Assembly: GCA_033439295.1 (NCBI GenBank) | Contig: JAVTLE010000003.1 | Coordinates: forward strand, 682,001 to 746,000 | From: Deuterostichococcus epilithicus | Lineage: Eukaryota; Chlorophyta; Trebouxiophyceae; Prasiolales; Stichococcaceae | Direction of reading: 5' to 3' | DNA length: 64,000 bases | Part shown: one piece after another, positions 3,901-60,900 of the stretch | Numbering within the stretch: position 1 is the first letter of the stretch | Layout of the letters: every line of letters starts with the position of its first letter | The notes under the pieces: generated by a model | Seen by the model: the letters and a program-made list of their open reading frames with translations, nothing else | Told to the model about the DNA's origin: nothing | Databases searched by the model: none | Made by a program: the position numbers and the translations under genes

Positions 3901-6900
3901 CGGCAGCGGTCACAAAGGAGGGCACCATCTTCATGTGGGAGGGCTGGTCCAAGCCGCTGGAGGCCGCCTGGGGCGCCAGCGGTGGAGCCGGCGGCGCCGG
4001 CGCCCGCCTGTGCGCCGCCCCGCCGCCGGCGACGCCGCTCGGCACCTCGCCCGGCACCTCCGCCAGCTTCCAGGTGGGCAGTGGGTTGGAGAAATGATTC
4101 GATTGTTTTGGAAGGGTTTGGGAAGGACCTGTGCATGGACACGTGCACTCTTGGGGAGCAGTGCGGGCCATCGACATGGCGCTGCCGCTGTCAAGTTGCA
4201 GCGTTGATGCAGCTTTCCATGAGTGTTCGTCTGGCGCAAATGCTGTCTGAGCCCTTCAACCTTCCTTCGCCCTGCGTGTCTGTGCTGCGCTGCACGCAGC
4301 TAATTCATGCTCCCATCCGCTCTGCATCATTTACTTGGACCGTTGCCTGCAGAAGCGGCACAACAACCGGGCACGAGCAGCTCGGCTGGCAGAGCAGGTT
4401 GAGCCGGCCAGGGTGGAGGGCCTGAAGCGCACCGTGTGCGTCGCCGTCGGCGAGAAGCACTCGCTGGCCATGCAGGCGCGCTGCGACGCCTTGCATCCAT
4501 CCTCGTCTGAGCAATGCAGCAAGAGCGATGCAGCTGTTGAACGGCTGTCTTTGGTCACAAAATTGAGCGTGTTGCTTTTGGAAGCTGCGGCGTTGATTAC
4601 CGCTGGGCTGCGCCTAGACCTTGCAGTGCAACTGACAGATTGTGACCTTTCCCAATGTGTTGCGTTCACAGGCCTGGTGTTGCAAGCCACTTGCGGCGTG
4701 GCCCTTTGATGGCGAAGAGTTACATGAGCCGTCGCACAATGACATGGTCGAGCCGGTGCGCTCTTGCTCATCATGCTGACAAGTGCATGTGCAGTCAAGT
4801 CGAGCCAGCACCTGGATCCTGAAGTCGAGCAGCCTCAAAACTTGTTGCATGTTGACTCCAGGCAGTGAACAGGGCACGCAATTAGACCCTGCAACAGCCG
4901 TGGCTCTGTCAGTGTTGCATATCTACTGCCGCTTGTGCACAGGAGGCGCCGGCTGCATGGCCGAGCGCGCAGCCACGACAGAGCGGGCACTTCCCCTGGT
5001 GCGAGCCCTTTGTGCCGCAGAACCTGAAGCGATATGACTCATTCGTCTCTGCGAGACGCTGGTCGCGAGGCAGTCTTCGTGTGCACGCGGCAAGAGCATG
5101 TCTGCATGATTACTGACCCTTCTGCAGCCGCTGCCGCTGCATGAGACACATGTGCTCGGGTCCGGCTGCTCTACAGCCGACAAGTGCGCCGTCGACACTG
5201 CAGGGACACGAGCGCGGGCGTGCCGAGCCTGCAGCGTGCATGTGAACGCGCTGTGGCAAAGCAGCTGGTGGAGCCGCGGTCGGCGTGCGGCGTGCTGCTG
5301 TACGCCGATGCCGCCGGCGCGACCATGCTGCGCCGCTACTGCCTGGTGCGCAGGCTTTGCAGGATGCAAGGCATTGTCGGGCTGGACGGGCTGGCTGCAG
5401 CTTGCGCACATCGCAGTCATGCGCCTGTCTTCCCCAGCGTCCTGCTCCTGCTGCCAGAAACTGTCGCGGGTCCGCGCCTGAAAGTGCTCTAGCATGACAC
5501 CTCCTTTGGAGCGTGGCAGTCTGGCGAGCATGTCGTTGGCGTGCGGCCGTGATCGAAGCCTGCATGGTGCTGCAGTGCCGCAGCATTGGCAGCATCAACA
5601 TCACACTGCAGAGCCAGCCTCCCTTGTCCGCAGCTCAACTGTGGCGCTCAAGCGTGACAGCTGCCGCTTCCGGCGGCAGTGGCGTCCAACCTGGATGCCG
5701 TCCTGCTGGAGGCGCCACTACAACACGGCGGACTGCTGGGCCCACACCATTGCTTGGGGCCGGCAAGGATGGTTTCTGCTCCCTGCAGGCGGTGATCGTG
5801 TCCAACCTGGATGCCATCCTGCTGGAGGCGCGCGAGGCGGTGGAGGCCCTGCCGTCGCACCTGCTGGCCGACCTGGAGGCGCTGTTGCGGGCGCGCTTCG
5901 CGACCCTCCCCGCCGGACGGGCGCCGCCGCTTGACGGGGCGGCGGCGGCCGTGGAGGGCGGTGTGCCGGGCGCGCCGATCGCGGGCACCCGACGCCCCAC
6001 GGCGGCCGTGCCCTCAGGTGGGGGTGCAGAACAGCCGCACGGCATTTTCATGAGCCGGTCATGAGGCGGTTCTGTCGATGGAAACCCCTTCTGGGCTGAC
6101 GATGGACCCGGCTGTGGCAGTAACACTGGTTCTGGCGCCTTCCACTCCGCGCAGAGGACACCGGGCCCGACTCGGGTCGCGAGGGTGCGCTGTCCAGTCC
6201 CGCCAAGGCGGCACAGCGGCCGGCGTCGGCGCAGCTGCCAGATCCGGCGCTGCTGGAGCGCGAGCGCAGCTTCAAGAGCGAGGCGGACGCCACGGAGGAC
6301 GCCGCAGCCTTCCGGCAGGCACGAGACAATGAAAAGGGACTAAAGCAGCCAGCATCCCACCATGCGGCAATGCGCCAGCCCATGGCTTAAGACACGGCCA
6401 CCGACTGGAGCTCTCCTCTGTGTGCAGTGCTCTGCTGACGTCTCTCCGTCCCAGGGCCCGATCTGCTTGCCGCCATCTGCCGGATCCAGCTTAAAGAGTC
6501 AGTGCCGAGGCCGCCGACCTGCGCCGCAGGCGCGGCACCTGCGGAAGAAGCTGCAGCAGATCGAGGCGTTGGAGGGGCGCCTCGCCGCAGGCGACGCTCT
6601 CAACGCGCAGCAAGCCGCCAAGGTCGCCCAGCGGCCTCAGGTGCCCCCCAGACCCCCGCGGCCTGCGACACTGCGCCGCAAGGAACGGTCACGCTGCTGG
6701 CGGATCCTGGTGTTGCTTGGATAGGCTAGGCATGCAGTTGCCAGGGTGCGGCCGCGGGCGCGGAATTCCGACTGCCGGACGTTGCCACTGACCGCGCTGG
6801 AAATCCTGCCCCTGAGCAGCGTCACAAGCGAGCATGTACGGATGCCTTTGGACTACCTGCGCTCAGGTTGTGGCCGCACTGGCTGCGCTGTCCAGTGGGG

Positions 6901-9900
6901 CGACCGTCGCGTCGCTGCAGCGGCTGCTATCGCCCCTGGCCTCTGCGTCGCCCAGTCGCCAGCAGGACGCCGGCGCCAAGCCCCTCGGCAGCCTCGAAGC
7001 GAGTGACAGCCAGCCTGTCGGGCTGGCAGGCGACGGCAGCGCGCGGGCGGGCCGGCAGCAACGCCGCCAGCGGCGGCAGGACAGTGAGCGGGCAGCCGGC
7101 CCGGCTGCGGAGTCTCTGGTGCCGGCCACATGCGCGGACGCCCTGCGCGTCACGTCTGACGGTGGCCGGCCAGGCGCGGGCAGCCCACCGGCGGCGGCGC
7201 TGCCTGCAGCAAGCGCCGGCTTCCATGATGGCAGCCTGGCCGCTGGTGCCGCTGTGCCATCCACATCCGGCTTCAGCGTGGCTGCCTCCCCGCCTGCTCT
7301 ACCGTCGCCGGTGGTGCGCTTCTGCCATGATTTTTCCTACGTTTTATGCGTGCACGTCTCCCCGCCGCACCTCTGTCGCCAAGTGGCATGGCATGGCTGC
7401 TGCCGCCTCGCCGTAGGCCTGGTCGCTCCGGGGCACACTTCCTTGTCCGATACCGACCTGGGACTCCGGTTCTTCCATACGGCAAGTCCAGATCTAAGGT
7501 GGTGTCTCGTCCGCAGGCGCGCAAGAGCAGCAGCAAGGCGCAGCGCAAAGGAGGCCTGTCGCTGTTCCTGCGCGGCGACTTGGACAAGGATGCTGCAGCA
7601 GCCGCGAGCGTCGACGCAACGCCAGCGCCGCGGGGCTGGGGATTGCCCGCAACGTCGGCCCCTGCTCCTGCAGCCGAAGCCGCGGCTGTAGCCGCTTCCC
7701 CAGCTGCCGCGCCGCTGTCGGCAGCCTCGTCGGGCCGCAGCACAGGCACCGCCGTCAGCGGCCTGACCGCCGGCATCAAGCGGCAGCAGGAAGTGGACAG
7801 CAGAGCCGCGGAAGGTGCGGCAGTCATCTGCTGTGCCCCAGTGCTCGGAAAGCATTTGCACGAAGGGCCCGCCAGCAATGAGCACATCCTCACATGGGTG
7901 TGCATTCACCAAAGAAGTGCGAAGTCGTCGCCGTTGTTCAGCACGGTGCAGCGTGACGGCCCGCACCCAGAACCCAAGCGTCCCGCAAGCATTGTGCCCA
8001 CGGTTCGTCACCTGCTGGCCTGCAGGTCAGTCGCCCGTCATGCTGCCGGCGCGCTCGCGCTCCGGCGCCCGGCCAGGGCCTCTCGCCCCCGGCGCGGCGG
8101 AGCTCCACCCGCAGCCTGCGCCGGCGCAGCCGCCGGGCGAGCCCGGCGCCAGGGGCGGCAGCCGCCGACTGTCACTGGCGGACTTTGTGTCCCCCAAGTC
8201 GGCGCCGATCCCGGTGAAGGCCGCGGCGGCGGTACCCGCATGGGGGGCCGCCGGCACGAGCCCCCCCGCCGGCGCTCCCAGCCTGAAGAGCATTCAGGTG
8301 CGTTTAAGCATCTGGGAAGCATGCTCATGCAACTGTCCACTGTAGTCGATGTCCACGGCCACCGCCCATGCCGCCAGTAGGCATTCGACAGGGCAAGGCC
8401 ATTTCTAATTGCGATTGCACAATCTGGCCCGCAGGCGGCGCAGGAGCAGCACCGAGAGAGCGTCGCGGCAAACTGGGTCCCGCTGGGCAGCTCGCCGCTG
8501 GGCAGTGCCCCCAGCGCCTCCTGGCGCACGTCGCCCCTCAGCGCAGCGGTCGCCGGCACCTCACCCGGCGCGCTGTTCCCCGCCGGCACCTCCCCCAGCG
8601 GCAGCAGGCAAGTTATTGTGGGGCGAGCTGCCTCTGTCTAGTTCCCATGATCCGCAGGGACTGCATTCGGCCGCCCACGGTCCTTGCATCGTCGCGTGTT
8701 GACATGCAAGCAGGGCACAGGGTGCACAGGCGGCCGGTCGCCCCTGCTTGCTCCGGGCGTCAGGAGCCGCCCGCTGACAGGCGGATGCCACAGCGAGCGT
8801 CAGCACAAGCCTGTTCGTCGATGATGCAGGCGCACACCGCAGCGAGAGGCGCCCAGCAGCAAGTGGTTTGTGCCGGAGGAGCACGTTGTGGTGCCCCTGC
8901 GCGAAATCGAGCGGGAGGCGCAGCAAGAGGCGGCACGGGTGCAGGTGCCATGTGTCCCTTCATACGTTTGCATGGGCATTGCGCACGACGCTCATGCATG
9001 CAGAGCCTGGCAGGCACGTGATGGCTGTTTTCAACCTCACGCAAGTCTCGACATGTCCAGAGCCGGAATGTCATTACCAAACTCCACAGGAGGAGGCGGA
9101 GGTTGCCGCCAACATTGCCGCCGCCAAGGCCGCCGCAAAGGCGCACAGGCGGTCAGAGGCCAAAGGGCGCGCCCGCGCTGCAAAGACGGCAGCAGCTCAG
9201 GCGGCTGCCGTCGCGGCGGTCACGCCAGAAGTGGCCGCCGCTACTGCAGCGCCTGATGCGGAGGAGGCGGTCCGGGCGGTGCCCGCTGCGGAGGAGGCAG
9301 CTCGGGCGGCGCCCAGCGACGCAGCTCCTGCAGCTTGCGGCCAGGACGGCACGCCAGAGGCCGCCAGCTCGGACGCTGCCGTCAAGCGGCGGCCCCGTCT
9401 GTCGAGGCCGCGGGGCGATCGGCGGCGGCAGGCGGGTGCGGGGCAAGACGCAGCGCGGCATGCAGATGGCGCAGGTTCCGGCTCTGCGGCGCAGCTGGTA
9501 GCTGCAGCGGCTGAGCCGCGTGGTGATGCGGCCCGTCGGGGCCCTCGGGTAGCTGCCGGTGGCGGGGCAGCTGCTGCGGAGCGTCCCAGACACCCAGAGC
9601 GCGCCCAGCGGCGGCCTGCGCCGCCACAGCAGCAGCAGCAGCATGCGGCAGACTCGCAGCAGCTATCGCCCGGCTCCGGGCGACCGGACAGCCAGCAGGG
9701 CGCCGCGTGGGCGGCAGCGCCGTGGGAGGCGACGGCACCGCCAGCCCCCACACCGTACAGGCAGCCTGGCAGCCGTAGTAGACCCCCCGCTGCCCGGCGG
9801 GTGGGTGACCCTCCAGGAGACATGACTGCCGACCGCGGCGCCAGGCAGCCCCGGCAGGATGGCACATCCCTGATGCCTGCTGCTGGAGCCGAATCGCCAG

Positions 9901-24115: not shown

Positions 24116-24140
24116 GAAGGATTTGCAACGCTCGGCTCTC

Positions 24141-32800: not shown

Positions 32801-34031
32801 CTCTACCGCGCGAACGACCCGGCGGACCGTGAGATCGTGCACAGCCACGACTTCAACAGGTATCTGACGCCCTTCCGGGCGGAATGGGACGCCAAGGACC
32901 CCTTCGAACGGGTGACCGTGGTCGGCAGGTGCGCCCCTCACCGGGATCTGCCTCCCATTCGCTGTGCTTCCCCCTCTGCGGCGCCCCAGCCTGTCAAGTA
33001 GCGCACTCGAACTGCCCATCGACACTGCAAGGGACCAGGTAGCGCGCATGAACGGGCGAGCAAGAGGCGCTTAGCCGCTGACACATGCCCCTGACTGCGT
33101 TCGTCACCAGCGACCGTGCCAAAGTCGCGACGGCTCCAATGGGAAGCCAGCGGCGCCGCGCCTCAGGTACATCAGCCATGATGGTGATGGGCGTTGCAAA
33201 GGGCGTTACTGGTGCCTCCAGAATCCAGAAACGTCAGCAAGGACTACGACAGCGCTGACAGGGAGGAGTGCTGCAATTCCAGGTACATCAGCGAGGACTT
33301 TGACGGCGTGGCGTTGCACCCGATCGACCTGTACGATGTGTCTACTGGGCGGCTGCTGGGCCAGCTGACGGACGCCAATCTGACCACCATCTGCCCGGTG
33401 CGTGCACCTGGCGCCCCCACAAAGCTTGGTTCGACATCGAGGAACGAGCGGCCGCGCCCCGAGACAAGCGCCTTCTTGAGCGATCGAGAAACGCAGCTGC
33501 GCTGGCCGGCGCCCATCTGTCATGCCAACTCCGAGTCGCTCACTTCCCCAAGGGGTCTCGCCTCTGCCTTGCCTCACCCCATGTGCGTGTGCACAGGTGA
33601 ACAAGCCCCACCCGAGGCAGGACGTCATAGTCAGCGGCTCCTCCCGCTCGCTGTACGCTTGGCGACCCAAGCCAGCAGGTGTGCCGCGCTCTGGTGTATC
33701 TGTCGTTGTGGAAAGAGCTGTGTACACGTGATTTGCGCCAGTATCAGTCTAACGCTGCTGCTTCGCCTCAAGTGATGGTGCTCATATGCACAAGGCACAT
33801 CTCACGAATGCTAGCAAATTGAACGCATGCTGCTTGTCTTGAGCAGACGAGGAGCGGGAGCAGGTGCAGACAGCGGCGGCAGAAAAGCGGCGGGAGGAGA
33901 TGGGGCCTTTCCGGCTGGACGGCGCCGGCGGCTACCTGTTCTTCGATGCCGACGACGCGGCGACTGAGAAGAAGAAGCGCAAGGCGAGCGGGGCGGCCGG
34001 GACTCCTGCCAAGGGCGGCAAGAAGAAATGA
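29890..34031 (+). CDS. DDB2: DNA damage-binding protein 2 (DDB2), plant type
   Basis: DDB2 is the lesion-recognising WD40 subunit of UV-DDB, working with DDB1-CUL4 in nucleotide-excision repair. An acidic N-terminus (29890) leads to two zinc knuckles: CHVCGKSGH (spliced at ~30088/30301) and CYLCKQPGHTTATC (~30373/30490), as in plant DDB2. The propeller follows: EAAVLKLHSRRCTCLEFHPT (~30790), IVLSGDKKGQVAIWNFEK (~30965), ALVNNIRFLPGSDDLCCTAS (~31230), GWVHGVTSEKTWGMLHGMD (~31560), ASNDHTARISDMRRL (~32140), KVVNSAFFSPRSGTKILTTC (~32520), RVWDSLYRAND with HDFNRYLTPFRAEWDAKDPF (~32790-32900), YISEDFDGVALHPIDLYD (~33283) and SGSSRSLYAWRPKPA (~33633). A Lys-rich tail ends at 34031. One intron uses a GC donor at 30626 (phase-checked). 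The DWD-box Trp is Ser here (ISDMRR). Confidence 0.93.
33161..33262 (+). repeat. Two echoes of the DDB2 exon starting at 33282
   Basis: CAGGTACATCAGC of the true exon edge (33280-33292) is repeated exactly at 33164-33176, where it is followed after a degenerate stretch by GGCGTTGCA, also present in the exon. A second, weaker copy lies at 33223-33259 (TCCAG....TCAGC.AGGACT). Both lie in the intron upstream of the exon, at offsets of about 116 and 57 bp. Confidence 0.75.
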
Positions 34032-34538: not shown

Positions 34539-37500
34539 ATGGCACCGCCAAGGGCAGGCGTCGCCCGTGCCGTTCCTCAGACGACAATACTTGCCAAGAA
34601 CATCCAGAAACTGCTAACACTGAGCAGCCTGGGTGAAGTGGACGATGCGGCCATCTACGTGCAAGGCAACGTCATCCAGTGGGTGGGCAAGACCGCGGAC
34701 CTGCCCGCTGAGTATCACACAGCGGATGAGGTGTTAGACCTCGCGGACCGGGTGGTCATGCCGGGCCTGGTCAATACGCACCACCACATGTGCGCTCGCA
34801 TGCGACTGCCATACGGCGCCATGTGTGTGACGCCCTAGTCTGGCATGACGCTGCGCTGACAGCACCACCGAGCATCGATGCGAATGCATGTGGCCTGCTG
34901 CGCCCTCTTCTCACGTGTTTCACACATGCACGATCCACAGGGTGCAGTGCCTCACGCGATGCGTCGCTCAGGTGCGGCACCGCTCCAGGCCACTTCCCTC
35001 ATGATCCACCACTGCAAGCATCGTACACGGCCATCCATTGGCGTCTAGCAATATCTCTGCTTGCTTTTGCGCCATGCCCGATGGTGGGCCATGCCGCATA
35101 ATCTGGGGCCTGCCTGAACCCTGATGCGGCGGTGCCATGCAGGAGGACCTGCTCTTTGGTTGGCTGACGACGCTGTACAAAGGCTGGGCGCACCTGACGG
35201 TGAGCCACACCAGCCCGGTGCCCACCTTTAGGCGAGACGACCAGCCAGGCCAGTGGCGGCAACTGGATCCTGCCGCATGGTTGCGCCGTCGCACCCAATG
35301 CATGCAGCAGCCTCTGCGTTCCTGCATGCGACGCACTCACCGAGGCTTTGCTGCAGCGTTCCGAAATCCGTCAGGCAGCTTGCAAAGGTGTTGAAAGCTC
35401 ATCGAACGTTCTGCAGGGCGACGATGTGCACACGGCCGCCAAACTGGCAATGGCAGAGCTCATCATGTCGGGGTGCACGACAACGTCTGACCATCTGTAT
35501 ATCTACCCAAACGATGTCACGTGAGACCTCGGCGCTTGGCGTTCACACGCCAGTTTCGTACTCCTGTGTCAATGCACATATCGACAGCATACTTCGTGCT
35601 CCATCTTGCGGCAGCCGCGTCTGAGGCACATCAACAGCAACACATGGATGCTCTAACCTCGGGAGGGGGCAGCTGTGTGTTCCCTGCGAGACCGTCAGCG
35701 CGCATGGCAAGCCTCTCAGTGTCTGAGCAGTTTAAGAGCGACCGCAGAGGCTTCACTGGTGCTGTGCCATTCAAGTGTTTTCAAGCTTTGTCAAGGGGCT
35801 CGTGTCCACGCTGCAGACTGGACGACACCATCCGGGCGGCGCGGGACATTGGCATCAGGTTCCACCCCACGCGCGGCGCCATGAGCCTCGGCGAGTCCAA
35901 AGGCAAGCCTAATCGTGTCAGCGACTCACCGCAAAGGACCAGAGATCAATTGCTGTTGATGTACAGAAACCGCTGCTGAGTCGAGATTGTGCAGTGCCGT
36001 GAATCCCAACCGTGTCTCGCCTGTGGTTTTCATCCTTCGGCTGCCAGCCGCTGGCGACGCGGCAATGCCGGCCCCAGCCACATAGGTCAGCGGCAGCACA
36101 ACACCGAAAACCCTTAACGATATTGCAGGCGGCCTGCCGCCGGACAGCGTGTGCGAGGAGGAGCCCGCGGTGCTGGAAGACATGCAGCGCCTCATCAACG
36201 AGTTCCACGACAACTCCAAGTAAGCTGACGGCGCAAAGATGCCTGCTGCTGCCCCTGCTGCTGGCCTGTCCGCTGCACTTTGCCGTCATGGATCTTGGCG
36301 CTCGAGCCGAACGCCGATCCAGCTCAACGTGAGGCAGCATCCGCCATTGGATATATAATGTGGCACGACTGGTGGGCACGCAGCGGGCATGGGCTGCTAT
36401 CTTGTCTGCACCTTCTCGCATCTGGCAGGACCTTGCAACCCCAAACCCGGGAAGCATCTCTGTCACTCGCAGGTACTCGATGCTGAAGGTCAGCCTTGCG
36501 CCGTGCTCGCCGTTCACCGTGACCAACGACCTGATGGTGCGCATTTCCGCTCCCTTGCCGCAGGTTTTCCATGCTGCGGATGAGCCTGGCGCCCGTCGCC
36601 CGCTTTGCTGTAAGCAATGACCTGATGGTGCGCTTGGGATCGGCACAGCCGCCTCAGCCACTTCAAGCCTGGCCCCAGGCGCCCCACAACGCTCTGCAAC
36701 GCGGCAGCATGCCCTGCAGACGGACCGCGAAATGGGTTGCACATCGAAAAAGCTTGGAAAATTGACGCAGTGCACAGGCGATCCAACCGAACGAAGCGCA
36801 CACACTGAGCCGGCTGCCCCCTCGCCGCCGCAGATAGCGGCGGCGGAGATGGCGCGGAAGCACCCAGGCGTGCGGCTGCACACGCACCTGGCGGAGAACC
36901 AGGAGGACGTGGACTTCAGCCTGAAAACCTACGGCTGCCGCCCCGGAGAGTACCTCAAGTGCGGTTTCACGTCAAGTCTTTTGATGAAATGAACTTCGGG
37001 AACCTAGTCTCTTGTCTGCCACGCTGCGCATGCTAGAAGAACCAGAAGGACGTAAATGGAGCTGGAGGCTTGTGGACGCCGCCTGGGGATACTGCTGGAG
37101 TGGTGCGTATTGACCCTTCCTCCCCTGGAGCCCCTGAATCGTGCGCGCTGGAAGATCGAACATCTGGTGGGTCGCCAGCCTCAATATCGGTAGCTGCCGC
37201 CGGGGGGAACCCCTCAAGTGCGTATCTTCCATGTTGGGTTCTCTCCGCAGAGCAGCCTCTGTAGTGGTGTCAGTCGAGGGGTGGGTGCCTGCACTGGCTT
37301 CTGCAGGCTCCTCCGGCCGCTGCACACGCACGTGGCTGGCTTCTGCTGATGCACCTTGCAGCTCAGTAGGAGTCGCAGGCAAGCGCCAGGCCGCAGACCC
37401 ATGACCGCATCCCTGTACACCTCAAGCAGTGTCAGACCGCCGCCGCGTCCCCTTGCGCCGCAGGCAGGTGGGCTGGGACCGCGACGACTGCTGGTTCGCG

Positions 37501-39106
37501 CACTGCTGCATGCTGGACGAGGCGGAGCGCAAGCAGTTCCACGAGGGCGGCCTCGGCATCGCGCACTGCCCCTCCTCCAACCTGCGCCTCGGCTCCGGCA
37601 TCGCCCCGGTGCGCCGCCGCGCCACGACAAGGCCTCCCCACAGCAGAACCAGTGCAAGTACAAAGTTATCTTCCAATCGACCCGTCTCCAGGCATCCAGG
37701 CACCGCTTTCTGAGGCCGCGATGTGCTTGCGCGGCGACATCCCTGCATGCCTCGGTGGGGACGGAGGCACTGCGGGGGTGCATGTGCGCACTGAGCATCA
37801 GACACTCCTCAGCATCTCCATGCAGGCTCGCCCTCGAGCGCTAGCCGAAAGTCGATTGCACTGGTGCGCGGCTTTGTGTACACTCGGGAACGGCCTCGGG
37901 ACCTTGGTAGCTCTCACAAACGGTGTGAAGGCTGCCGCCTCGGACGGGTCAAGGCGCTGCTGGAGGCGGGCGGTACCGTGCGGCTGGGGCTGCGACGCTA
38001 GTACCTCCCACGACGTGGAGGCAGCCTCGAAACCTGGAGGCCTGGCCACGTTGATAAATGGAGCTGAACATCCTGTCAACAGGTCAAGGCGCTGCTGGAC
38101 GCCGGTGTGAATGTGGGACTGGGCGTCGACGGCAGCGCGAGCAACGACTCGGGCAACCTGCTCAGCGAGGCGCGCCTCGCCTGCTTCCTGCAGCGCGCTG
38201 GCGGCGACGTGTCTGGTGCGCTTGCAGCTCGAAGAGCTGGGGGAGTCTCCTGTTTTCAACTCTGCGCTCTGCAACATCGAACACCATTCCCGCGTGAGCA
38301 GTAGCGGACTCCCACCTTGATTCTTGCTGCGCGCTGGCTGCATTATGGGGCTGTTGCAGGCACAGCTGCCCTGAGCTGTGCCACACACAGGCCAGCAACG
38401 GCTCACCTCTGCATGTCGAGCATCACGCAAGCAAAGTCGTTGGCCTCGATAACGTTGTCCCTCTCCACCCTGCAGCCATGACGGCGCGGGATTCGCTGAC
38501 TTTGGCGGTCAAGGGCGGTGCGAAGAACCTGGGCCGGGACGACATCGGCGAGATCGCGCCCGGCTTTGCGGCGGACTTTGTCGGCTTTCGCACCGACACA
38601 CTCGCTTTCGCCGGCGCGCAGCGCGACGTCATCTGCGCCCTCATCTTCTGCTCCCCAGGCGCCGACCAGGTGGGGTTTGGTTTGCGCAGCCGCCCCTATG
38701 TGTGTGGCCAGCTGCACCCGGCCCCGCCCAATTCGGACGCCTGCGGCTGATCCTGGGCAACCATGTCACCTCGAGGGTTGCTGCCGTCCCCGCCGCCCGC
38801 TGCCGCCACCACATCTAATTGGTCCTTGCGAAGCATTCAATGGCACCGTACGGAGAGAGAGAGAGAGGATGACGTACGCGCCAGCCTCACTCGGGCTGAA
38901 AGACTGGAACGGATCAACACGCACTCTCAACCCTGAGACGCCGCTGGTGCCTCCTATCCTGGCAGGTGGACCTGTCGGTCATCAATGGGGAGGTGGTGGT
39001 GCGTGACGGGCAGCTCCTGACGCTGGACGTGGGGTCGCTGGTCAAGGAGCACAACAGGCGCTCCGCCCACATCTGCTCCTTCATCAAGGACAACATCACA
39101 GCGTGA
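34539..39106 (+). CDS. 8-oxoguanine / guanine-deaminase-type amidohydrolase
   Basis: The family comprises zinc amidohydrolases that deaminate 8-oxoguanine, guanine or chlorotriazine derivatives. Exon one (34539-34789) reads [12 protein letters not shown], with the metal-binding HxH. A 31-nt exon (34941-34971: [10 protein letters not shown]) joins in phase to [19 protein letters not shown] (35143). Then come [17 protein letters not shown] (~35470), [18 protein letters not shown] (~35840), [17 protein letters not shown] (~36145), [20 protein letters not shown] (36473-36536), [19 protein letters not shown] (36834-36955), [13 protein letters not shown] and [18 protein letters not shown] (~37465-37610). 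The exon from 38083 contains [14 protein letters not shown], followed by [20 protein letters not shown] (38478). The last exon ends IKDNITA at 39106. The HTHLAE, FAHC and DGSASND motifs fit bacterial 8-oxoguanine deaminases best. Substrate is inferred from family only. Confidence 0.85.
34941..34971 (+). other. 31-nt micro-exon of the deaminase
   Basis: This exon is flanked by CCACAG and GTGCGG. It completes the Met codon of the NTHHHM motif split at 34789 and adds [10 protein letters not shown], aligning with the YQTLTR-like segment of the family before the ELFGW motif. Phase is preserved on both sides. Confidence 0.75.
36564..36627 (+). repeat. 64-nt duplicate of the deaminase exon 36473-36536
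   Basis: Both segments are exactly 64 nt, begin after CGCAG and end at GATG followed by GTGCGC. The first encodes [20 protein letters not shown] and the second [20 protein letters not shown] in the same phase, with no stop. They are 27 bp apart. The first keeps the family motif LAPCSPF, so it is taken as the regular exon. The second could be a mutually exclusive alternative exon or a decaying copy. Confidence 0.85.
37036..37222 (+). repeat. Two decayed echoes of the deaminase exon 36834-36955
   Basis: At 37040 GAACCAGAAGGACGT resembles GAACCAGGAGGACGT of the exon (36897). At 37185-37222 CTGCCGCC....CCTCAAGTGCG resembles the exon end CTGCCGCCCCGGAGAGTACC with its donor CTCAAGTGCG (36935-36964). 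Both copies lie downstream, inside the following intron, and neither keeps an open frame. Confidence 0.65.
37948..38017 (+). repeat. Echo of the deaminase exon starting at 38083
   Basis: GTCAAGGCGCTGCTGGA (17 nt) is identical at 37948 and 38083, an offset of 135 bp. The copy continues with a diverged version of the [10 protein letters not shown] region (a GACGCTAGTACC-type match shifted by an indel) and has a stop in frame, so it is not a usable exon. Confidence 0.8.
38858..38870. repeat. GA microsatellite
   Basis: A short run of GA dinucleotides lies in the last intron of the deaminase gene. Confidence 0.8.
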
Positions 39107-41821: not shown

Positions 41822-44800
41822 TCAGAGGTGCACCATCTCCGCCTGCGCGGTCAGCTCGCCGAAGAAGGCCTGCTCCGAGACGGGCTCCAGGCTGTCAGAG
41901 TCAAGGCCCGCCTCCAGCCCGGCGCCCGACAGCGTCGAGCGCGGCGGCCCCGTGAAGTGCACCCTGCACACGAGTTACAGAAGCTCACAGGTTCAACTTG
42001 TGTGGCCGCTGGGATCCTAAGGCAGCGCCACAAATGCAGCGTAACAATAGACACGAGCTGAATTGCAACCTTGGCTGCTGTGCCTTCACCCTGAGCCCCG
42101 TCCTCGAGCCGCATTTTTGGACTTCCATGCTGCCGTTCAAGTCGGCATAGCGAGATTTGACCCAGTGAAAGCCCGCTTGCCTGCAGACGGCCTCCTCGAT
42201 GACGGAGGCTGTCAGGCCACCGCGCTTGCCAGCGGCGGCCACCGCGTCGCCCACGGCGTCCGGCTCAAAGTACGCCTTCACATCGCCAGAGGCGCCGGGC
42301 GCCAGCGGCGGCAGCCGCCACTGGACCCGCTGCTGCTTGCCGGCCCACAGCGCCGTCGGCGACACCTGTGGCGGGGGGCAGCCGCCCATGACGATGCGGT
42401 CAGGAAGGGATGGCCCCTCGGCATGCATTGAGGGCATGCCTACTGTGCTGACTGGACACAATGATGTGTCGAGCTAGGTATGCGAGTCAGCGGGCATGCA
42501 GGAGGGTTCCGATGCAGCAGCTTCCCGGCAGGGTGAGAGCTGCCCCCAGAGAGCGCACAGCAGCATGCCGTTGCAGTTGCACAGCGTTTTGCATGGAGCC
42601 CCGACCTCGTCAGCCTCATCACAGGAACACAGTGCCTTCGAAAGCCGCCCACCAATCAACAAAGGACGGCCAGCTGCACCTTCAACAGCCTCCAATTAGC
42701 GATGGGAGATGAGAAACAGCTGCACACCTTGAGGGGCTCGCCGAGGTGGGGGTGCAGGTCCATGTCGACCGTCACGGCGTAGAGCGGCAGCAGCGACGCG
42801 GGGTTGACCACGTAGCGCAGCACCAGCGTCAGTCGCCGTCTCGTCGACAGGGTAACCTTTGGCAAAGCAGCCGCGGGCAGCGGCGCTGCCACGGTGCTGC
42901 TTGCGCGCTTGGATGCAGCCTCCGCTGGCGCCGCCTCTGCCTCGTCCCCTGCCGCTGTAGGTTCGGCCGCCTCGCCATTGCCGCCCGCTGCCTCGCCGTT
43001 GCCGCCCAACGCCTCCTCCATGCCACCAGCCGCATCCTCCATGCCGCCAGCCTCATCCTCCATGCCGTCGTCTACCGCCTCCTCTGCGCTGCTGTCCTCG
43101 GCGTCTGCTCCGCCCTTGCCGTCGGCCGCCTCGTCTGCTGCCAGGTCCATGAGATCAGCCTCTGGTGCCGCAGGCTCTGCCGCCTTTGCTTTGATCTCCT
43201 CCTCCTCGTCCAGCGGCTCGCTGAGCACCGCGATGAAGCGCACCTGCACGCAGCAGCAGCGGAGGTGCGGCCCCAGAAACAGGACACACTGCTGAATTGA
43301 CGCTTTAACCAGAGCGTGACGGAGCGTCCTAGCCTTGCCACGAACGCTCGTGCCTGCTCCTCAACATGCAGATTGTATGAGAGACAGAGCTGGATTGCAT
43401 GCGGTCTGACCTTCCGCAGGGCTCCGGTCTCGTAGCACACTACGAGTTGCTTTGGTTTCGAAGCAGATGTTTGACTAGTTGATTGGCGGCAGGACGGCCG
43501 CAGGCAGCCGGTGCTGCAGGAAGACAGGTTGCTGTGGGAGAACAACACGACATAGAACAAAACAAGAAATTGCAAGCATTGCATTTGCTGCACCTGGATG
43601 GGCGGCGCCAGGATCGCCGCCGGCAGCCGGTACTGCAGGAAAACCGGCTTGGCCCTGCCGAAGGTGGCATCGAAGGCCGCGACATGACAGCCACTGTCGA
43701 ACCAGCCGTCCGGCCGCACCGTGATGCCGCCGTCATGCTGCGCCGCCGCTAGCGCCCGCTGCACGCCCGCCGGCGCATTTGGCGGCTGCCGCAGCCTGCG
43801 AGGACGGGAGTGTCCATTCTTTGGCAGGCATCTGATGCATTTGACGCAGCACTTAAGTTAAGTTCGGAAATCACACACTATGTATGCCCTGTGTAGCATG
43901 GCCACCGCAGCCTGTCGGAGTGAAGAAGATGAGCTGAGAACACTTGTGTAGACAAGCCGGCGTGAGATCGCTGCGCTTCGACTTTCGAGCGAACTCCGTG
44001 CAGGAACGCGCCTGAATGTGGTCTTGAGGTGCTCCTTGGTGAGCGGCACCGTGCCCAGCACCTGCCCCAAGGTGCCCGCCTTCTGGATGTCCCGTCCCAC
44101 GACATGGCACCGCCATATCTCCTCCAGCCACAGTCCTCGCGGCCCTGCGGCAATGTGTTGTGATCTATATACATTCTGGAGACAATGCACACACACACAC
44201 ACAGGAGGAAGTCGTGTGTCTATCGGGTATATCGGAAATGGTAACCATTAGATACTGTCAATATCATGAATACAGTCATTTTCTTGGAGAAGAAGCCCGT
44301 GAATTGGTGATGTTATCTGGGCGTGGGTGTCGAACGCAAGGTAGTGAGCGGAATAGCAATGGGATGCAACAGGAAGGAGCAAGGTGAAGGGGAGCAGAGT
44401 GAAGAAGCGACGCGCACCGGTGGGCGTCGCGGGAAAGTCGATCTGGTCGATGGGCGGCGCATCGGGACGGGGCCCCTCCGGAAACGAGTTCCACATGTCC
44501 CCCCCCTGCAGCAGGCAATCCTGCATCCGTCAACCGCACACGCTGTGTGCAACCGTCCGGAGGGAGGCCCGGACATACATGCCCCCTGTCCTTAACCATG
44601 CAACCGTTTCACTTCCCAATCATAACAGTCTGCGCATGGCCAGGCAGCAGGCATGTTTGCATTGGCGCAACCGCGAGGCGAGGAAGCAAACTAATAGATG
44701 AGCTGAAGGCGGCAGAGCGCGCACGATGGGCTCCGAGGGGCCGAGCTCGGCGGCCTCTGCGGCGGCAGCGGCCTCCGCCTCGGACGCCGTCGGCGACAGC

Positions 44801-46665
44801 GTCTGCAGCCGGTACCCGGACATGTCCCAGCCGGCGGCGGGCGCCGCGGAGGGCGCCTCCGGCGCCACGTACGCCAGCGGCGGCAGCGCGTCCTCTGGCA
44901 GCTTGAAGGTGCCCACCGTCAGCGGGTCCACCTCCTCGGCCAGCGACCTGCGGTGCGGCAGAGCTGGCGATCCAGTCGACTGTGTCTGGTACTCTAGTCA
45001 TGTGTTTAATTTGATGCTGTGAGGACTTGCCCGGTCCACCTCCTCCGCCAGCGACCTACAGCACATGGTGTTTGACATATCAGCATGAGAGAGAGACGAT
45101 GTGCCTGTTTGCGGTTCTCGCTTGTTCTAAGTGGCAGGTTCACCACGTCCGCCGGTGGCCTGCGGCGCAGAAACATGGTTTACTTTATGTGGTTGGTGGT
45201 CTTACTCAGGAGCAGGAAGCGCACGAGGCGGGGGTCCTCTCTGGGAAAGTGTCTGGCCCATCCCTGCAGTACAGCGCAGCGGAGCACAGCGCAGCAGGCC
45301 AGTTGTGCGTCCCGGCAAGCTGCAGTGCGCTCAACTATGTGTGTGTGTTCAAAGAACCAACTCCTACCTGGGGGCGATGTACAGGGGCGCCGCCTCGGGG
45401 GCCGCCTTCTTCTCACCGCCGCGCAGCATGGCCAGCGGGTTGGTCACGCTGCGCCGCATCTGCTTCATGGCCTTTGTGGCCTCGCTGCTGATGGAGTCTA
45501 CTGCCGCCTCCGCCGCGACCGCTGCCGACTTGGCCTGCCCGCCATTCGCCAGCAGAGCAGCCACCGCCAGGTACACCTGTGGGCAGGGTTCGGGGTATGA
45601 TGGATAAACCTACTTTACAGGTTGCCAAACGATGGACCAGGGGTGCGCTACACACATGCTACTTGCTGGCGCGTCCGCTGGACTGGGACTGCAGCACTTG
45701 CATCTAGCCCCTCAGGTGCTCCAGACGTAGGGCTGCCCACCCTCTCGAGGCATGCAGTGACACGACTGCAGGAGGAACTTGCACTGCATCAGGAAGCACG
45801 GGCGACGTTGGGGAGGCATCTGTGGGCATGCCTCGGGGAAGCGGCCCGTGAGCTTTTCGGGCGTCAGGTTGACGCCGCGGTTGATGGTGCACAGCTGATG
45901 CACGACGGAGTTGACCAGCTGCGTGCTGAAGAAGATGTTCATGAAGGCGGGCGCGACAGCCATGACGTAGACCTGCGACACCAGCCGGTACACCACCCGG
46001 AACCTGCAGGCGGCACCAGGGTTCAGGGTTCCGAGCCGCCCCACTGCGAGGCTTGGAGGGTCTGCGAGGCTTTGCGGGCGACGAGAGGGCCCCACCCTGT
46101 GGACGCCTCACGCTTGGGGCCTGTCAGGCCCTGGACCGTTTCCAAGCACACAGGTCGCGGTTCACGGAAGGCGTTGCTTGGGGTTGACTGCCAGGCAGGC
46201 GGCCAGTGCATGTCAGGGCAGCACAGGCGCGCGGGGAACCACCTGTCGTTGCTGGCGGGCATGTCGCCAGAGGCGTAGCCCGGGGGGTTGTCGCCCGACC
46301 TGTATGAAGCAACAGGCGTGAGTGAGTAAGAATTGTCCGGTCTGCTGGCTGGCATCTGCAGTGCCAGCCACTAGCTCGTGCCCGGCTCGCAACCGCTAGC
46401 GCACCCGTCATCGTCCTTGGTACCGGACGCGTGCGCAGCCAGCAGGTCCACGACCTCGTAGGACGCATCCACTGCCGCCTTGATATCCACACCGCGTCTG
46501 CAGATAGAAGAAGGATCGATCGAGCACAGGCACTGACGCAGCAGGTACGGCGGGTGAATGCACGTCACACATGCCAGGTCACCGTACAGAATCGCACGTC
46601 TGTGTCAGTAATGCTGGCCCACGCTTGGAACGCAGCACTATGGCTATCTCGAGGCCCGCGACCAT
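41822..46665 (-). CDS. TML: TML, muniscin-like subunit of the TPLATE complex
   Basis: TML is a longin/mu-homology-domain subunit of the TPLATE (TSET) complex, which acts at the plasma membrane in clathrin-mediated endocytosis. Exon one (46665-46598) reads MVAGLEIAIVLRSKRGPALL and joins in phase to RGVDIKAAVDASYEVVDLL (46499). The conserved core FRVVYRLVSQVYVMAV with GVNLTPEKL (~46005-45845) follows, then VYLAVAALLANGG (~45576), TVGTFKLPEDALPPLAYV (~44925), RCHVVGRDIQKAGTLGQVL (~44110), PVFLQYRLPAAILAPPIQ (~43650), a Glu/Ala-rich acidic insert (~43200-42900), RRRLTLVLRYVVNPASLLPL with VTVDMDLHPHLG (~42840-42740), and RVQWRLPPLAPGASGDVKAY (~42330). The last exon reads LEPVSEQAFFGEL and stops at 41822. 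Order and motifs follow Arabidopsis TML (AT5G57460). Confidence 0.88.
44191..44205. repeat. CA microsatellite
   Basis: A run of about seven CA units lies in an intron of TML. Confidence 0.8.
45033..45061 (-). repeat. Echo of a TML exon edge (44925-44953)
   Basis: GGTCCACCTCCTC.GCCAGCGACCT is present at 44925 and 45033, with 26 of 29 bases identical and an offset of 108 bp. In transcript sense the copy lies upstream of the exon that starts GTCGCTGGCCGAGGAGG, inside the preceding intron, and follows its own TAG acceptor-like triplet. Confidence 0.85.
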
Positions 46666-53400: not shown

Positions 53401-56102
53401 CCAGAGGTGCCTGCACAATTCTGCGACTCTGGCTACGCTCACCCTCGAGGGAGCCGTGCACGTCACGGGGTCCACAGGAGGGTGGTGACTCGCCTTGTCT
53501 TGCCGCTGTCAGCTCTGCACCTCTTGAGCGACGAATGTCCCCCAACGCCGTGACGTCAATCCTTGGACGTTGGACACCAACACCTGAGCATGCATCCTGC
53601 ACAGGATGCCTACCCAGGTGGTTATGGTCACAGCTCCAGCCAGTACGGCCTGGGACAGGGCGGCGGCCCGCAGACAGCGCAGTCCACCTATGGTGGCGGC
53701 GGCGGCGGCGGCTCTGGGTACCCACCCTCCAGCGGCGCCGTGCCCCGCTCAGCCTACATGCAGCAGCAGCAGCAGCAGTCCGGCTACCAGGCGCAGCAGT
53801 CGGGCTATCCCCAGCAGTCGGGATATCCGGCCAGCAGCGCCGCACCTGGCGCATCGGGCTATGGCGGCGGCGGCGCAGGTGCTGGTGGCGCTGGGCAGGA
53901 GGCTGCGCCATGGAGCGGCGGCGGCGGCGGCAACTATGATGAGGCGCCGGCAGGGCAGGCCTCGACCTACGGCGGCGCAGGGCAGCAGACATCTGGGTAC
54001 GGCAGCTCTGGGCAGCAGGGATCTGGGTATGGCACAGCCGGGCAGCCGGTATCTGGGTATGGCACAGCCGTGCAGCCGGCATCTGGTTATGGCAGCACTG
54101 GCCAGCAGTCATCGGGCTATGGCAGCACTGGCCAGCAGTCATCGGGCTATGGCGCTACCGCGCAGCAGTCTTCGGGCTATGGCGCTACCGCGCAGCAGTC
54201 GTCAGGGTATGGCGGCGCCGCGCAGCAGGCATCCGGTTATGGCGGCGCTGCGCAGCTGGCGTTAGGCTACGGCGGCGCTGCGCAGCAGTCGCAGGGCTAT
54301 GCTGCGGGCGGCTACAGCGGCGGCGGCAGCGGTCAGACGGAGTACGGCGGCCAGCAGCAGGGCGGACAGTATGCCGGTGGCGCCAGCACCGGTGGCGGCG
54401 CCACCGGTTATGGCACCCCTGCGGCGGCCGGCCTGAGCGGTTTCTCCAAGGCCAGCACGCCTGAGTTTGGTCAGGTGCTGCACCGCCGCTCACTGAGCCC
54501 TGTGCCACCTTGCCCACACCATCCCTCGGCTTCAGAACATGTGTAACAAATTGTGTCCCATGGGCGGTGCTTCCCCTGTTCTTGTGCTCGTCCGCTTGAG
54601 CCGTCATGAACCTCACTCGGGGATCTTGGTGGACAGGTCACCAGGGTGAAACGTGACGGTTCCTGCTAATGTTCCCCGTCATGTGCGCAGCCGACGCAGC
54701 AGGCGTACGGCGCGCAGGCCGCCGGGTACGGAGGTCAGGCGCAGGAGGCCTACAGCGGTCAGGCCGGCTATGGCGGCGGCTCGACAGCCTACGGCGCCGG
54801 CGCCTCTGGCTACAGTCAGGGCACTGGCCAGGGCGCCGCATACTCAGGTGCATAACCACCAACTGTCGCCGCGTCAGCGTCTGGCTCGACCCACTGATGG
54901 ATAGCACGTCTGTGTCCGAATCTGTGGGCTTGTCTTTACATATGTGGTGGCATCTGTCCCAGCTGAGCGGCTCGCGGGCGCAATGTGCAGCGCTGCAGTC
55001 AGGAAACCGAAGGTGCAGGTGCGGCATTGCTAGTGTCACATGTCGCTCTGCCCTGCTGCAGGTTACGGCCAGGAGGGCTATGGCGGCGGCAGCGCGCAGC
55101 AGGGCAGCTATGACGCCGGCGCGGGCCAGAAGCGCAGCTATGACGCGGCGCAGGGCAGCGGCGGTTACCAGCAGGTGGGCACTCGATCCCGCCCCAGTCT
55201 CACCGACTGCTGTCCTGAAAGCGCATCAGGCTCCGAGAGCAGACCTGTCTGTCCAGAGTCCTCATGCACATGGCTCGGCAATTTGCCGATTCTTCCGTGA
55301 GGCTCGAGCGAGCCGCGATACTGCGGCAGACATCCTGCCTAGTGCAGCGCGGCACAACCTTTAGCACAAGGCATTGCCAGGATGAGAGCAGCCAGTGATG
55401 GTGTATATCAAATAAACTCCTGACACTTGATGAGATTAACATGCTGAGGCTTCTCTTCCGACACGCTTTCCCTCTGTCCCTTGGTTGTCGTGGTCTTCCT
55501 GCCCTTGCACCAGCTGCTGCCACTGGCCTGTGACGACAACTGTCATGCTAATTCCCAGAGTCGCCTTTCACGGCGGCAGTGCTGGCTTCGATCGATAGAA
55601 CTGAGGCCGTGAAGCATGCTGCGCCATGCAGCCATGCTCACACTGCAACTCCAGCCGGTGCACAAGACAGCCATAGACAGCGTTTGTAGCTGAGTTTCGG
55701 CCAGTGACGACAACCTTCATGCTAAATTTTCCAGAGCCGCCGTTCTTGGGCGGCAGTGCTGGCTCAGATCGATAGAACCGAGGCCGCCTGGTGCAGTCAC
55801 TTCACCAGCAGACGCGCAGTTGCTGCATGCCCGTGCATTGATGCTTTGCAGGCAGAACACTGGATGTCTCTGGTAAAGTCGAGCACGCTGCCTTGCTGAC
55901 ATTTTGACAGTGATGCCCCCCCCCTGCCGTGCAGGGCGGCCCAGGATACGACAGCTACGGGGCGCCAGCAGGTGCGAGCGGCGCAACCTGCTGGGACTGT
56001 GCTGCTGTGCCTTCGTCGCCAGAAACAGGAGCTTCCGCTGTTCATCAGGGCGGGCCAGGCTCCAAGCTACCTCGGCGGCCGTGCGAGTGTCTACAAAAAT
56101 GA
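47465..56102 (+). CDS. Multi-RRM, RGG- and SYGQ-rich RNA-binding protein (hnRNP/FUS-like)
   Basis: The gene opens MVSTRTRAGKVGQ at 47465, followed by a long Ala/Glu/Asp acidic region (47808-48440) ending EEWEQMDIPDEWRPLPLIK. An RRM-like exon (VGNIPEAAAEADLREVF, 48749) follows. RRM two reads TQLFLGNVSSGWAD joined to DYGFVEFSQPAV (~50019/50433). RRM three reads RILYVGNLKP and FHVYGRVRDVHL...NFAFVTF (~50911/51266). Then come ERKSRMEREGDGRGGPAD and a Gly/Arg-rich RGG region (51955-52560), Ala/Gln coiled segments (52800-53275), and a prion-like tail of Gly-Tyr-Gly/Gln repeats (53605-54475, 54690-54850, 55063-55173). The last exon (GGPGYDSYGAPAG, 55935) reaches a stop at 56102. It is inferred to be a nuclear mRNA-binding protein able to form condensates. 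Two frame slips in the RGG region look like consensus errors. Confidence 0.78.
52230..52560 (+). other. Frame slips and N bases in the RGG-coding region
   Basis: Frame one encodes Gly/Arg up to about 52235 and then turns Ala-rich. The Gly/Arg character continues in another frame (GGRGGPPAGAAIGG..., 52240-52530) and shifts again near 52530, after which a third reading gives GGRGGRGMQ at the donor. Two N bases (52451, 52464) lie between. Assembly or base-calling indels in a GC-rich repeat explain this best. Confidence 0.65.
52581..52595. repeat. Poly-C tract in an intron
   Basis: A run of about thirteen C lies just after the donor of the RGG exon. It is likely to be length-variable. Confidence 0.8.
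53965..54305 (+). repeat. 30-bp coding minisatellite (SGYG decapeptide repeat)
   Basis: About eleven consecutive 30-bp units encode decapeptides of the type SGYG(S/G/A)xxQQ(x). Units near 54086 and 54116 are identical over their length, as are those near 54155 and 54185. This indicates recent unit duplication within the coding sequence. Confidence 0.85.
55527..55788 (+). repeat. Two-copy ~175-bp tandem duplication in an intron of the hnRNP-like gene
   Basis: GACGACAAC(T/C)(G/T)TCATGCTAA and GGCGGCAGTGCTGGCT with GATCGATAGAAC are present at about 55533-55610 and again at about 55707-55788, in the same order and strand. The block precedes the last exon, whose start GGCGGCCCAGGATACGACAG resembles the repeat's GGCGGC..G....TC/CAGAT segment loosely. 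Confidence 0.8.
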
Positions 56103-57925: not shown

Positions 57926-60900
57926 ATGACGACCGCGGCTCAGGGTTCGCAGATCTCGGCGTTAAGTGCACAGATGAACGCCGATCGAGTCTCTCGCACA
58001 GCAGTACCGGCAGCCAGCGCGGACGCGGACAGGCATCAGAACGGCGCACATGCGCCGTCTCCAGGAGACATAGCGGCGTCGTACGCGGGGCGCCTGACTG
58101 AGAAGCTCTCGATGTTTGGCCTGGACGTCCAAGCGCCTCTGGCACTCCGCTGGTGGGACTCCGATGCCTGCTGCGGATATCGACGCATTCAGCGCAAATT
58201 TGAGCTACCTTCAGATCATACTGGTGTCAGTTGAAGCGTTTGCCGTCACCCGGAACCTGCACTTCGGGGCTCTGAGGACCAAGACAGCTTTGCCGACGCC
58301 TTGAACGCCCGCTTGACCAAGACATGGTCTTTCGCTCATGCACTGCGTTGAATCGCAATCTCGAGGTTGAAGTGCTGCCGTGTCCAGCGTTTGCCAACTT
58401 GCCGTGCCAGTTTCATAGGCACGTGCACCAGAATGATTTGTGCTGTCTCGAACGTTTCGGTCTGACGGGCGGGCGGACGTGCTTGTTAACGCTTGTATCG
58501 GATATGTCAATGCACCGTGCTGTGGCGTTCGCGCTATGAACCCCTGATGTCTGCCAAATGCGCAGGGTTGCATCTGCACCAGCAAGGCGGAGGCATGTCT
58601 ACAAGCTTCAGGAGCCTTTCAGATAAAGTTTTATTTCTGTGGACGTGGTCTGCAGCCTGCGCACGAGGTGTCATATTGGCTGGCACGCAGGTATAACGAT
58701 GCCATTCCGGAGGGACTTGGGGCACGGATACCAGTGAAAGGCCCCGCAGGTGCTGAAATATTTCAATATGCCTGGCCCCACGATCTCCCGGCGGACGTGT
58801 GCGTGGCAAGTGCGGCAGCAGACTGCATCAGTATGTCTGTGCGCCCAGCATGTATGGCCGCGAGCGCCCCGCTACTGAAGCCCCTTCCACTGTGAGCGCC
58901 CTCTGCTCACAGGCCCGGACACCTTCGCGCTGCTGGTGGGCAACACGAAGCAGATGTGGGAGCACTTCCTCATGGCCTGCGCCTGCCACCAGGCGCGCAC
59001 ACATTGCTATTGCCGCAGTGATGATGGATACATGACATGCCATGCCTGCCTACTCACCATTCAAGCGTTGCCAACCCCTCCAGCGGCTCCCCGCGACGCA
59101 GTGTGCCTGGAGGTTCTTGAAACGCCCTGCTGAGATGATCACGAATCCTGTCACAGGAGCTGATGGACCTGAAGGATCCAATGGATACGTACATCGAGCG
59201 ATCTGTGGAGGCGGTGCTGCAGGATGCACTGCCAGGGTAAGTCCCAACGGTTCTGTCTCCAGCTTCGAGCCGAACAGAAGCCTGGCAGGTGCACCCCCTT
59301 GGGGGGTGCCCGAAGAGCTTTGTCCGAAGCTCTGCGCAGTCCGGGCAGCATGTCAGAGTCGTGGCTGCTGTGTGTCTCAGCGCCCCAGCGCTGCACGCTC
59401 TAGCATCGATTCCGCAGCGTCAGACGTGGGCCCCGTGTCGCGAGTGTACGGCCAAGGACGGGGGCCAGCGCGCCGCGCCTCCCCCCTTAACTCCTCCTCT
59501 TCAAGGGAGCGAGCAATTGCTGCCGCACCTCCTCACGCCTGTAGTTTCGGTGCGTGCCGCAGGGTCAGCTGCCGGTGCTACTACGGGCACCGGCAGACGG
59601 CTGACGTGGCGTCAGGCGGCTACGTGGCCCTGCAGCGTCTGGCGCAGGCGATAGGGCTCGCGCACCTGGACTCCGCCTCCCATTTGTGCCTGCACCCCAA
59701 GTTCGGGCCCTGGTTCAGCCTGCGCGCGCTGCTCGTGTTTGACGGCGTGCCATACCGCGGTGAGCTGTCTCAAAGCTGCCTCAACAAAAACCATTGCCTG
59801 CCTCTGGCTGGCAAGGTTGACTCAGGCTGGGGTAGTCATGGACGACAGAGTGCCTTCGCTCAACATATTCAAATGCGTGGCAGGCTCAGTGGCTTGCATG
59901 TGCCGAGAGAAGCAACCGCGCAGGCAGGAGGCAGCAACAGTGTGTACATGCTTTATATTGTTAAGCTGGCGACCCGCGCCCGCACAGGCACCAAGCCAGC
60001 GGAGCTGCCCAACCCGCTGGACGCGACGACGCGGCGGTACATCAGCCTGGCAGTGTCCAGCGCCATGCGCTCCTCCTCCGGCGACCTGGCAGGTGCACAT
60101 TCTCAGGTGTTGAAGATAGAAAGGTGTGCAGCGTGACTGGAGAGTCATGTGGCTTGCTGTGTTGCTGCCGCGCCTGGCGAGCTGGCGACCTGGCAGGTGG
60201 TTCCTACGGCGTCTCTGCTTACATCTCGCACTTGACATCTCGCACACGCACACTGCATTTGAGGTGCCAAGCAACATGCACCGCAATGAGCAACAGCACA
60301 GTGCCGTGCTGCCGGCCCTCAGGATACTGCCGGACATCTCCAGCGGACGCCGCTCATGCATGTGGCCTGTTCGCTGCAGAGGGCTTGTTGACGAACCCTG
60401 GTGCCGTCCCCGCAGCGGTGGCGGTGGAGGCAGACAGCCGGCTGAGGTCGCAGGACGGCACAGCGCGGGCGCCGAGCGTGGACGCTGTGCGCAGCAGCTG
60501 GCAGAAATGGGTGCGCCTTTCTGCAACCCATGCCCATGCCTGCACATGACCCTGCACACGAGAGCTGCTGCAAGTACGGTGCCGCTGCTGTGCAGCCGCC
60601 TGCCATGACGCAGGCGCAGATTGCCACTCGCGCCAAGCAGCAGGGAACAACTGCTCGGTAGCCGCGTCAGTTCGCTGCCCCGATCGCTGCTGCAGGTGGC
60701 TATCCGGGACGCGCCGTGCGCGGGTCACCCCTGGCGCTACTCCAAGCACCAGCTGGTGTACCACTACACGGGCGACCGTGAGGTGCTGCGCCGCCTCGTC
60801 GCCGTCGCCGGCTCGCCCCGCGACGCCCCCGAGGTGTGGCCCGCCACAATAGTTTCTTATCTGGTTTGCCTGAATTGCCTGAACAGACTTCTGCTTCGAG

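Follow-up and report, generated by a model that had tools for sequence, protein, structure and literature searches.

In the green alga Deuterostichococcus epilithicus, a few per cent of exon ends recur as a worn copy, here called an echo, in the neighbouring intron, about 50–300 bases away. The echoes were apparently produced by short local duplications that the gene survives thanks to splicing. The echoes were analysed in a 64-kb window of the genome (GCA_033439295.1, contig 3, positions 682001–746000; about 62% guanine plus cytosine (GC)) and in 22 further stretches of 10 kb from 17 contigs, whose coordinates (given below with L-numbers) were chosen blind to sequence. The combined 284 kb represent 0.6% of the 46.8-Mb genome (21 contigs). 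All exons and introns described here were predicted by a splice-aware hidden Markov model, self-trained on the sequence, which returned 574 introns with a median length of 233 bp and the consensus sites CAG/GTGCG (donor) and YGCAG/G (acceptor).

A sequence-only reading of the window had claimed that decayed copies of exon edges lie in the adjacent introns of many genes, and they are indeed present far above chance. Ungapped direct high-scoring segment pairs (HSPs) with a score of at least 16 and an offset of 12–399 were collected, and a low-complexity filter retained 110 of 473, discarding 363; the null, five order-2 Markov resamplings, was filtered identically. The null mean was 3.6 HSPs (3.0 at offsets 60–399, where 87 were observed). 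Per base of offset, HSP density hardly changed between 12 and 180, was lower from there to 300, and lay near background above 400. Forty-two HSPs joined an exon to an intron, 19 joined intron to intron, 19 were intergenic, 16 fell in the same exon, 13 joined two predicted exons and one was exon–intergenic; 17 of the 19 intergenic pairs came from one array in L020, which also supplied most of the short-range inverted pairs. When pairs of these shapes were placed at random, 32.6 ± 4.8 of them joined an exon to an intron, leaving the observed count about 2 standard deviations higher, and the tests of exon edges reported below are much stronger than this raw class count. Exon–intron pairs occurred at 0.15 per kb outside the window and 0.14 per kb inside it; the window is not special, and exon-edge echoes occur beyond it. 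At a score of at least 16 and a distance of 60–400, 87 pairs were direct and 19 inverted, or 72 and 4 without the L020 array. Template switching or end-joining filler acting in both orientations was disfavoured on the latter counts.

The exon–intron pairs were concentrated at splice junctions, with 31 of the 42 lying within 10 nt of one (null 45%, 29–62). The edges were also examined without the repeat finder, on the same gene models: 40-nt pieces were taken from 416 internal exons, and the match of each piece to its own intron was ranked against its matches to 99 randomly drawn intron stretches of the same length, a procedure in which 1% of pieces are expected to match. The acceptor edge (first 40 nt) was matched in its own upstream intron in 20 of 395 cases and the donor edge (last 40 nt) in its own downstream intron in 13 of 402. 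Pooled, 33/797 edges were matched (8 expected), against 26/2391 when six edge controls were taken together (P = 3e-7); mid-exon sense pieces gave 8 matches in 512, and cross-intron, antisense and mid-exon controls ranged from 0.3 to 1.6%. Matches were found in the window and in 15 of the 22 sampled stretches, about 8 of the 33 being expected by chance. Net of expectation, about 3% of exon edges are echoed. By extrapolation from a sample assumed to be typical, detectable echoes would number some thousands genome-wide.

It is highly improbable that this signal stems from chance, from low complexity or from errors in the gene models. The models were predicted from DNA alone, most raw HSPs were low-complexity, and two window pairs (one in the RimM gene, one in a deaminase-like gene) are weak. 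These concerns are met by the matched controls, by the contrast between edges and edge controls, and by a Pfam scan of six window proteins, four of which exceeded the cut-off of a family (RCC1, WD40, amidohydrolase and RimM); a fifth matched MMACHC at 23.2 bits, below the cut-off of 27, and the sixth matched no Pfam family.

The side on which an echo lies depends on the edge that it copies. Acceptor-edge echoes lie 5' of the exon and donor-edge echoes 3', a rule obeyed by 40 of 42 HSPs (62% in a geometric null) and, counted per exon, by 28 of 30 (P = 1e-4). The two exceptions are L023:4386 and a deaminase exon in the window, for which the family match suggests that the gene model picked the wrong copy. 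The sequence-only reading noted copies on both sides, but had missed this dependence. A model of two-way spaced copying predicts 68–72% compliance with the rule, compared with 95% observed, and was rejected.

These features are probably best explained by repeated local duplications, head to tail, that span a splice junction and whose inner copy then decays. Stretches of DNA of tens to about 150 bp would be duplicated in direct head-to-tail orientation across the genome. A duplication straddling one splice junction would be survivable: as long as splicing keeps to the first donor or the last acceptor, the mRNA is unchanged, and the extra exon edge would be stranded inside an enlarged intron. 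There it would decay without selection while selection held the true exon, and repeated duplication of some edges would give two or three echoes about 90–150 bp apart. Head-to-tail duplication is suggested by the direct orientation of the pairs, by their closeness to each other and by the edge rule. The 5'/3' rule would arise because selection leaves a donor-straddling unit with its first donor and an acceptor-straddling unit with its last acceptor; the exon-derived half would be recognisable longest because the true exon is under selection while the stranded edge decays. The duplications may be caused by replication slippage or by break repair through fill-in and end joining; the echoes are presumably unused in mRNA.

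Introns that host echoes were longer than the predicted introns as a whole (median 335, n = 28, compared with 233, n = 574; P = 0.003). The offsets of the 42 exon–intron pairs had been said to cluster near 100–135 bp; 12 do fall there, but the spread is wider, with 25 at 83–172 and 15 at 205–348, several of the larger offsets being further copies of the same edge. Several edges had two or three echoes, mostly about 90–170 bp apart, and hand-picked arrays held two to four copies, exon included. The edge signal fell with distance from the junction and reached background by 45–75 nt into the exon, and the HSPs extended no more than 71 nt into it. Homology anchored on the junction was strongest over the first 30 nt of exon (z 32), weaker at 30–60 nt (z 14) and lower in the first 20 nt of intron (z 6).

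Several observations weigh against this explanation. A full tandem unit should carry intron to fill the offset, yet homology mostly ended 10–20 nt from the junction and was absent at 10–40 nt into the intron (z 0.3). Tandem duplications simulated at an age that fits the exon side left an intron homology of 6.1–6.8 over those 10–40 nt, against 5.4 ± 0.22 observed, and 30–36% of their HSPs ended 0–10 nt past the junction, against 57% (23/40) observed; older simulated ages fitted the intron side and lost the exon signal. A neutral tandem model with one age for all duplications, about 0.3 substitutions per site, came near the observed length, identity and exon signal, again with excess intron homology. 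Constant-rate simulations, tandem and junction-delimited alike, placed 58–65% of pairs at a score of at least 24, compared with 19% observed, a figure to be read with the bias of the gene finder, which tends to model young echoes with intact splice sites as exons (L003:5762, L014:9278) and so hides some of them. Young full-length duplications were scarce, with one clear case of 133 bp in L014. Long young copies were rarer than constant-rate simulations predict, which casts doubt on the earlier statement that echoes are seen at every stage of decay. The pair at L023:4386 breaks the 5'/3' rule outright, and an intron–intron pair at 55.5 kb in the window has an unrelated spacer of about 90 bp between its copies. 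These discrepancies might stem from a mixture of processes, from a burst in the past, or from selection against copies whose branch point and pyrimidine tract still work.

Some of them would also be expected if copying were delimited by the junction itself, a reading that we regard as unlikely. Here a mechanism linked to splicing, to transcription or to exon–intron chromatin would place an exon edge and its splice site (about 30–75 nt) in the adjacent intron, typically 80–170 bp away, without the intron beyond. The absence of intron homology 10–40 nt from the junction, the position of the HSP ends and the short exon reach agree with it, and a simulated copy with 2–10 intron nt performed better than a full unit on the 10–40 nt score and on end positions. 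Intron-end 30-mers had no echo in their own intron, except for a small excess 30–60 nt from donors (2.5% at p ≤ 0.01). Over the first 20 intron nt, however, the same simulation fell short of the observed homology (4.4–4.7 against 5.5 at exon-fitting ages), and it shared the shortage of young pairs. When echoes were compared with each other as a test free of selection (12 pairs from 10 hand-chosen arrays, a small sample), some homology was detected on the intron side (z 2.3, compared with z 6.9 on the exon side, at 30 nt), clearly in 2 of the 12 at 30 nt and in 3 at 40 nt. The L014 case and the deaminase pair 36468/36559 are full or near-full units, and part of the asymmetry between exon and intron is explained by two decaying copies on one side against one on the other. 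To our knowledge there is no enzyme or precedent for such copying. It seems doubtful that copying of this kind, coupled to splicing or transcription and repeated genome-wide, feeds introns with raw material for alternative exons.

Retention of echoes as functional alternative or poison exons, spliced in to regulate or diversify the protein, is quite improbable as a general account. Many copies do keep an AG or GT, as the sequence-only reading noted: the splice dinucleotide was present in 17 of 30 echoes examined (AG 9/15, GT 8/15) and lost in 13. By our own estimate, however, retention in over half of the copies is about what decay at 20–25% divergence would leave. Mismatches at codon positions 1, 2 and 3 amounted to 18, 17 and 24% (chi-square P = 0.047), a slight third-position excess, but so nearly even as to indicate little coding constraint, and most echoes copy one exon edge and not a whole exon.

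One case in favour of functional exons is a 64-nt exon of an 8-oxoguanine-deaminase-like gene on the plus strand. Copy 1 (36473–36536, within 36468–36542) and copy 2 (36564–36627, within 36559–36633; offset 91) are both whole exons of equal length, each with its frame and both splice sites intact. The exon copies differ at 21 positions without indels, 11 of them third codon positions and 5 and 5 at the others, and the 27-nt gap between them is too short for a normal intron; the wider 36468/36559 alignment is gapped, with 58/77 identical. The second copy alters the APCSP loop. Copy 1 is probably the original, because it matches the 8-oxoguanine deaminase model better (531.1 against 514.8 bits, both just under the cut-off of 532), and the gene model had placed its exon on the probably poorer copy. 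Whole exon, both splice sites and frame are duplicated here, and the pair is a candidate for mutually exclusive exons.

Introner-like elements, or the birth of new introns by tandem duplication (the Rogers model), would both be expected to leave direct repeats near splice sites. Introners would place the same sequence in many introns, but five echo or spacer stretches searched genome-wide had no match beyond their own locus, in a search that skips very common words. The echoes also look unlike births of new introns, because they lie mostly in the intron interior and because, of 40 offsets compared, 2 came within 12 bp of the intron length. On these two results both mobile elements and intron birth of the Rogers type were rejected, and this reading is hardly credible.

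The sequence-only reading had proposed an undescribed process, but exon-edge copies with splice sites in adjacent introns have been reported in birds; the comparisons that follow draw on excerpts of the papers cited. In the exon stuttering of avian dot chromosomes (Hron et al. 2026, PMC12954441), lateral exon parts reappear together with a splice site in the intron next to them, forming imperfect tandem clusters in simple-repeat-rich introns whose length varies within species; 236 introns were reported, 190 of them on dot chromosomes. The algal echoes likewise take a lateral exon part with its splice site into the adjacent intron, and share the proximal rather than distal placement, the imperfect copies, the intact coding region and the GC-rich setting. 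Unlike the avian clusters, they mostly comprise one to three decayed copies, without satellite-like introns in the window, and are spread over contigs. Tandem Repeats Finder detected no array with a period above 60 in the window, other than a coding repeat that it read with a period of 90 bp, and edge matches in the window and in 15/22 stretches show no concentration on special GC-rich microchromosomes. The echoes are not classed as avian exon stuttering because neither multi-copy arrays in the window nor chromosome restriction in the sample was found, although they may work in the same way.

Three other systems share features with the echoes. In a potato RNA-dependent RNA polymerase gene, tandem duplication of an intron–exon edge created a new intron and exon (PMC4974935); it too carried an acceptor and part of an exon, whereas predicted intron number is unchanged in the alga. 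Small tandem duplications at DNA breaks in mouse and human cells, with overhangs of about 50 bp (PMC8355091), are a known source of short direct duplications, without a link to splice junctions. Direct repeats of 4–30 bp between two intron ends, read as insertion scars (PMC11782384), also lie at exon–intron borders, while the algal repeats are about 20–75 nt and run from exon edge to intron interior. No exon-edge echoes in algae were found among the literature matches listed, although a remark in the Chlorella variabilis genome paper (10.1105/tpc.110.076406) is still possible. Relative to the bird case, the plastid-bearing host, the dispersed distribution and the mostly old echoes are new. If a few per cent of edges are echoed, introns would be a readable record of short duplications, from which ages, sizes and survival rules could be measured. 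The echoes would also show exon stuttering outside vertebrates, hint at a general connection with GC-rich genomes, and provide a standing supply of cryptic splice sites and alternative exons.

Most loci listed in the sequence-only reading stood up, namely the IBtk-like, TML, DDB2 and CblC-like genes, three deaminase pairs, the 28-kb array and the 55.5-kb pair. The RimM pair 26108/26314 was weak (19/23; P = 0.027 when 700 bp were searched), as was a fourth deaminase pair added by the repeat scan, 38182/38318 (20/24, P = 0.06, non-significant). The other listed window pairs gave P values of 0.0025–0.0085, with a floor of about 0.0025–0.005 because the random comparison stretches can contain the locus itself. 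The gene labels IBtk, DDB2, TML and CblC are those of the sequence-only reading; the scans back RCC1/ankyrin, WD40 and, weakly, MMACHC, and the TML label comes from that reading alone.

On the plus strand, the RCC1/ankyrin (IBtk-like) gene has an acceptor-edge echo at 5667–5715, 5' of the exon (offset 116; 41/49 identical to 5783–5831); the first 43 nt or so of the predicted real exon at 5789–6017, whose RCC1 assignment is from Pfam, are echoed. The start of a predicted exon of the DDB2-like gene (33283–33397, GR/YISEDFDG; WD40 in the Pfam scan) has an outer echo at 33164–33190 (offset 116) and an inner echo at 33224–33254 (offset 54), each with 24/31 identities to 33278–33308; viral contigs were searched for a DDB2 relative and none was found. 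Elsewhere in the deaminase-like gene, the donor edge of exon 36834–36958 is echoed on the 3' side at 37176–37222 (offset 259; 36917/37176, 36/49) and the acceptor edge of exon 38083–38215 on the 5' side at 37944–37988 (offset 135; 37944/38079, 35/45), the latter pair being outside the 110 retained HSPs. A donor-edge echo of exon 59988–60092 in the CblC/MMACHC-like gene lies at 60184–60199 (offset 104; 16/16 against 60080). The 55.5-kb pair, also on the plus strand, is a direct duplication between introns (55525–55609 and 55699–55786; about 86 bp, 84% identical, 74/88). It has no third copy in the genome and its spacer matches nowhere else; the duplicated block is smaller than the offset because the spacer is unrelated.

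On the minus strand, the acceptor edge at 44947 of a predicted TML-like exon (44725–44947) has a first echo at 45033–45057 (offset 108; 24/25 against 44925–44949) and a second, the third copy of the edge, at 45134–45168 (offset 212). An intronic echo array at 28076–28504 contains three scored pairs with offsets of 102, 285 and 319. A donor-edge echo of exon 43594–43795 at 43485–43528 (offset 119; 37/44 against 43604–43647) was absent from the sequence-only reading. The acceptor edge of exon 63327–63447 also scored as echoed in its own intron (p ≤ 0.005).

In the other stretches, the clear young case at L014:9178–9443 consists of two full-length 133-bp units, 92% identical, across an acceptor edge, of which L014:9140 is likely an older echo (76–81% over 21 nt). 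At L003:7651–8738 two adjacent predicted exons are echoed, one of them (8501–8647) on both sides. L012:1248–1272 and 1335–1359 are identical at 25/25 positions in two predicted exons 87 bp apart, with flanks lacking obvious similarity, and are possibly a very young spaced copy. The L020 array (8294–8936) is composed of units of about 30–45 nt in both orientations with a GCCCTATCCTTTCTYG core, outside predicted genes. An in-frame 30-bp coding repeat (SGYG-type) at 53967–54288 of the window belongs to a predicted low-complexity protein. A gene for the Rubisco large subunit lies on contig C21; among solved chains, its product is closest to ones such as 8q04 and 1gk8, the latter from Chlamydomonas.

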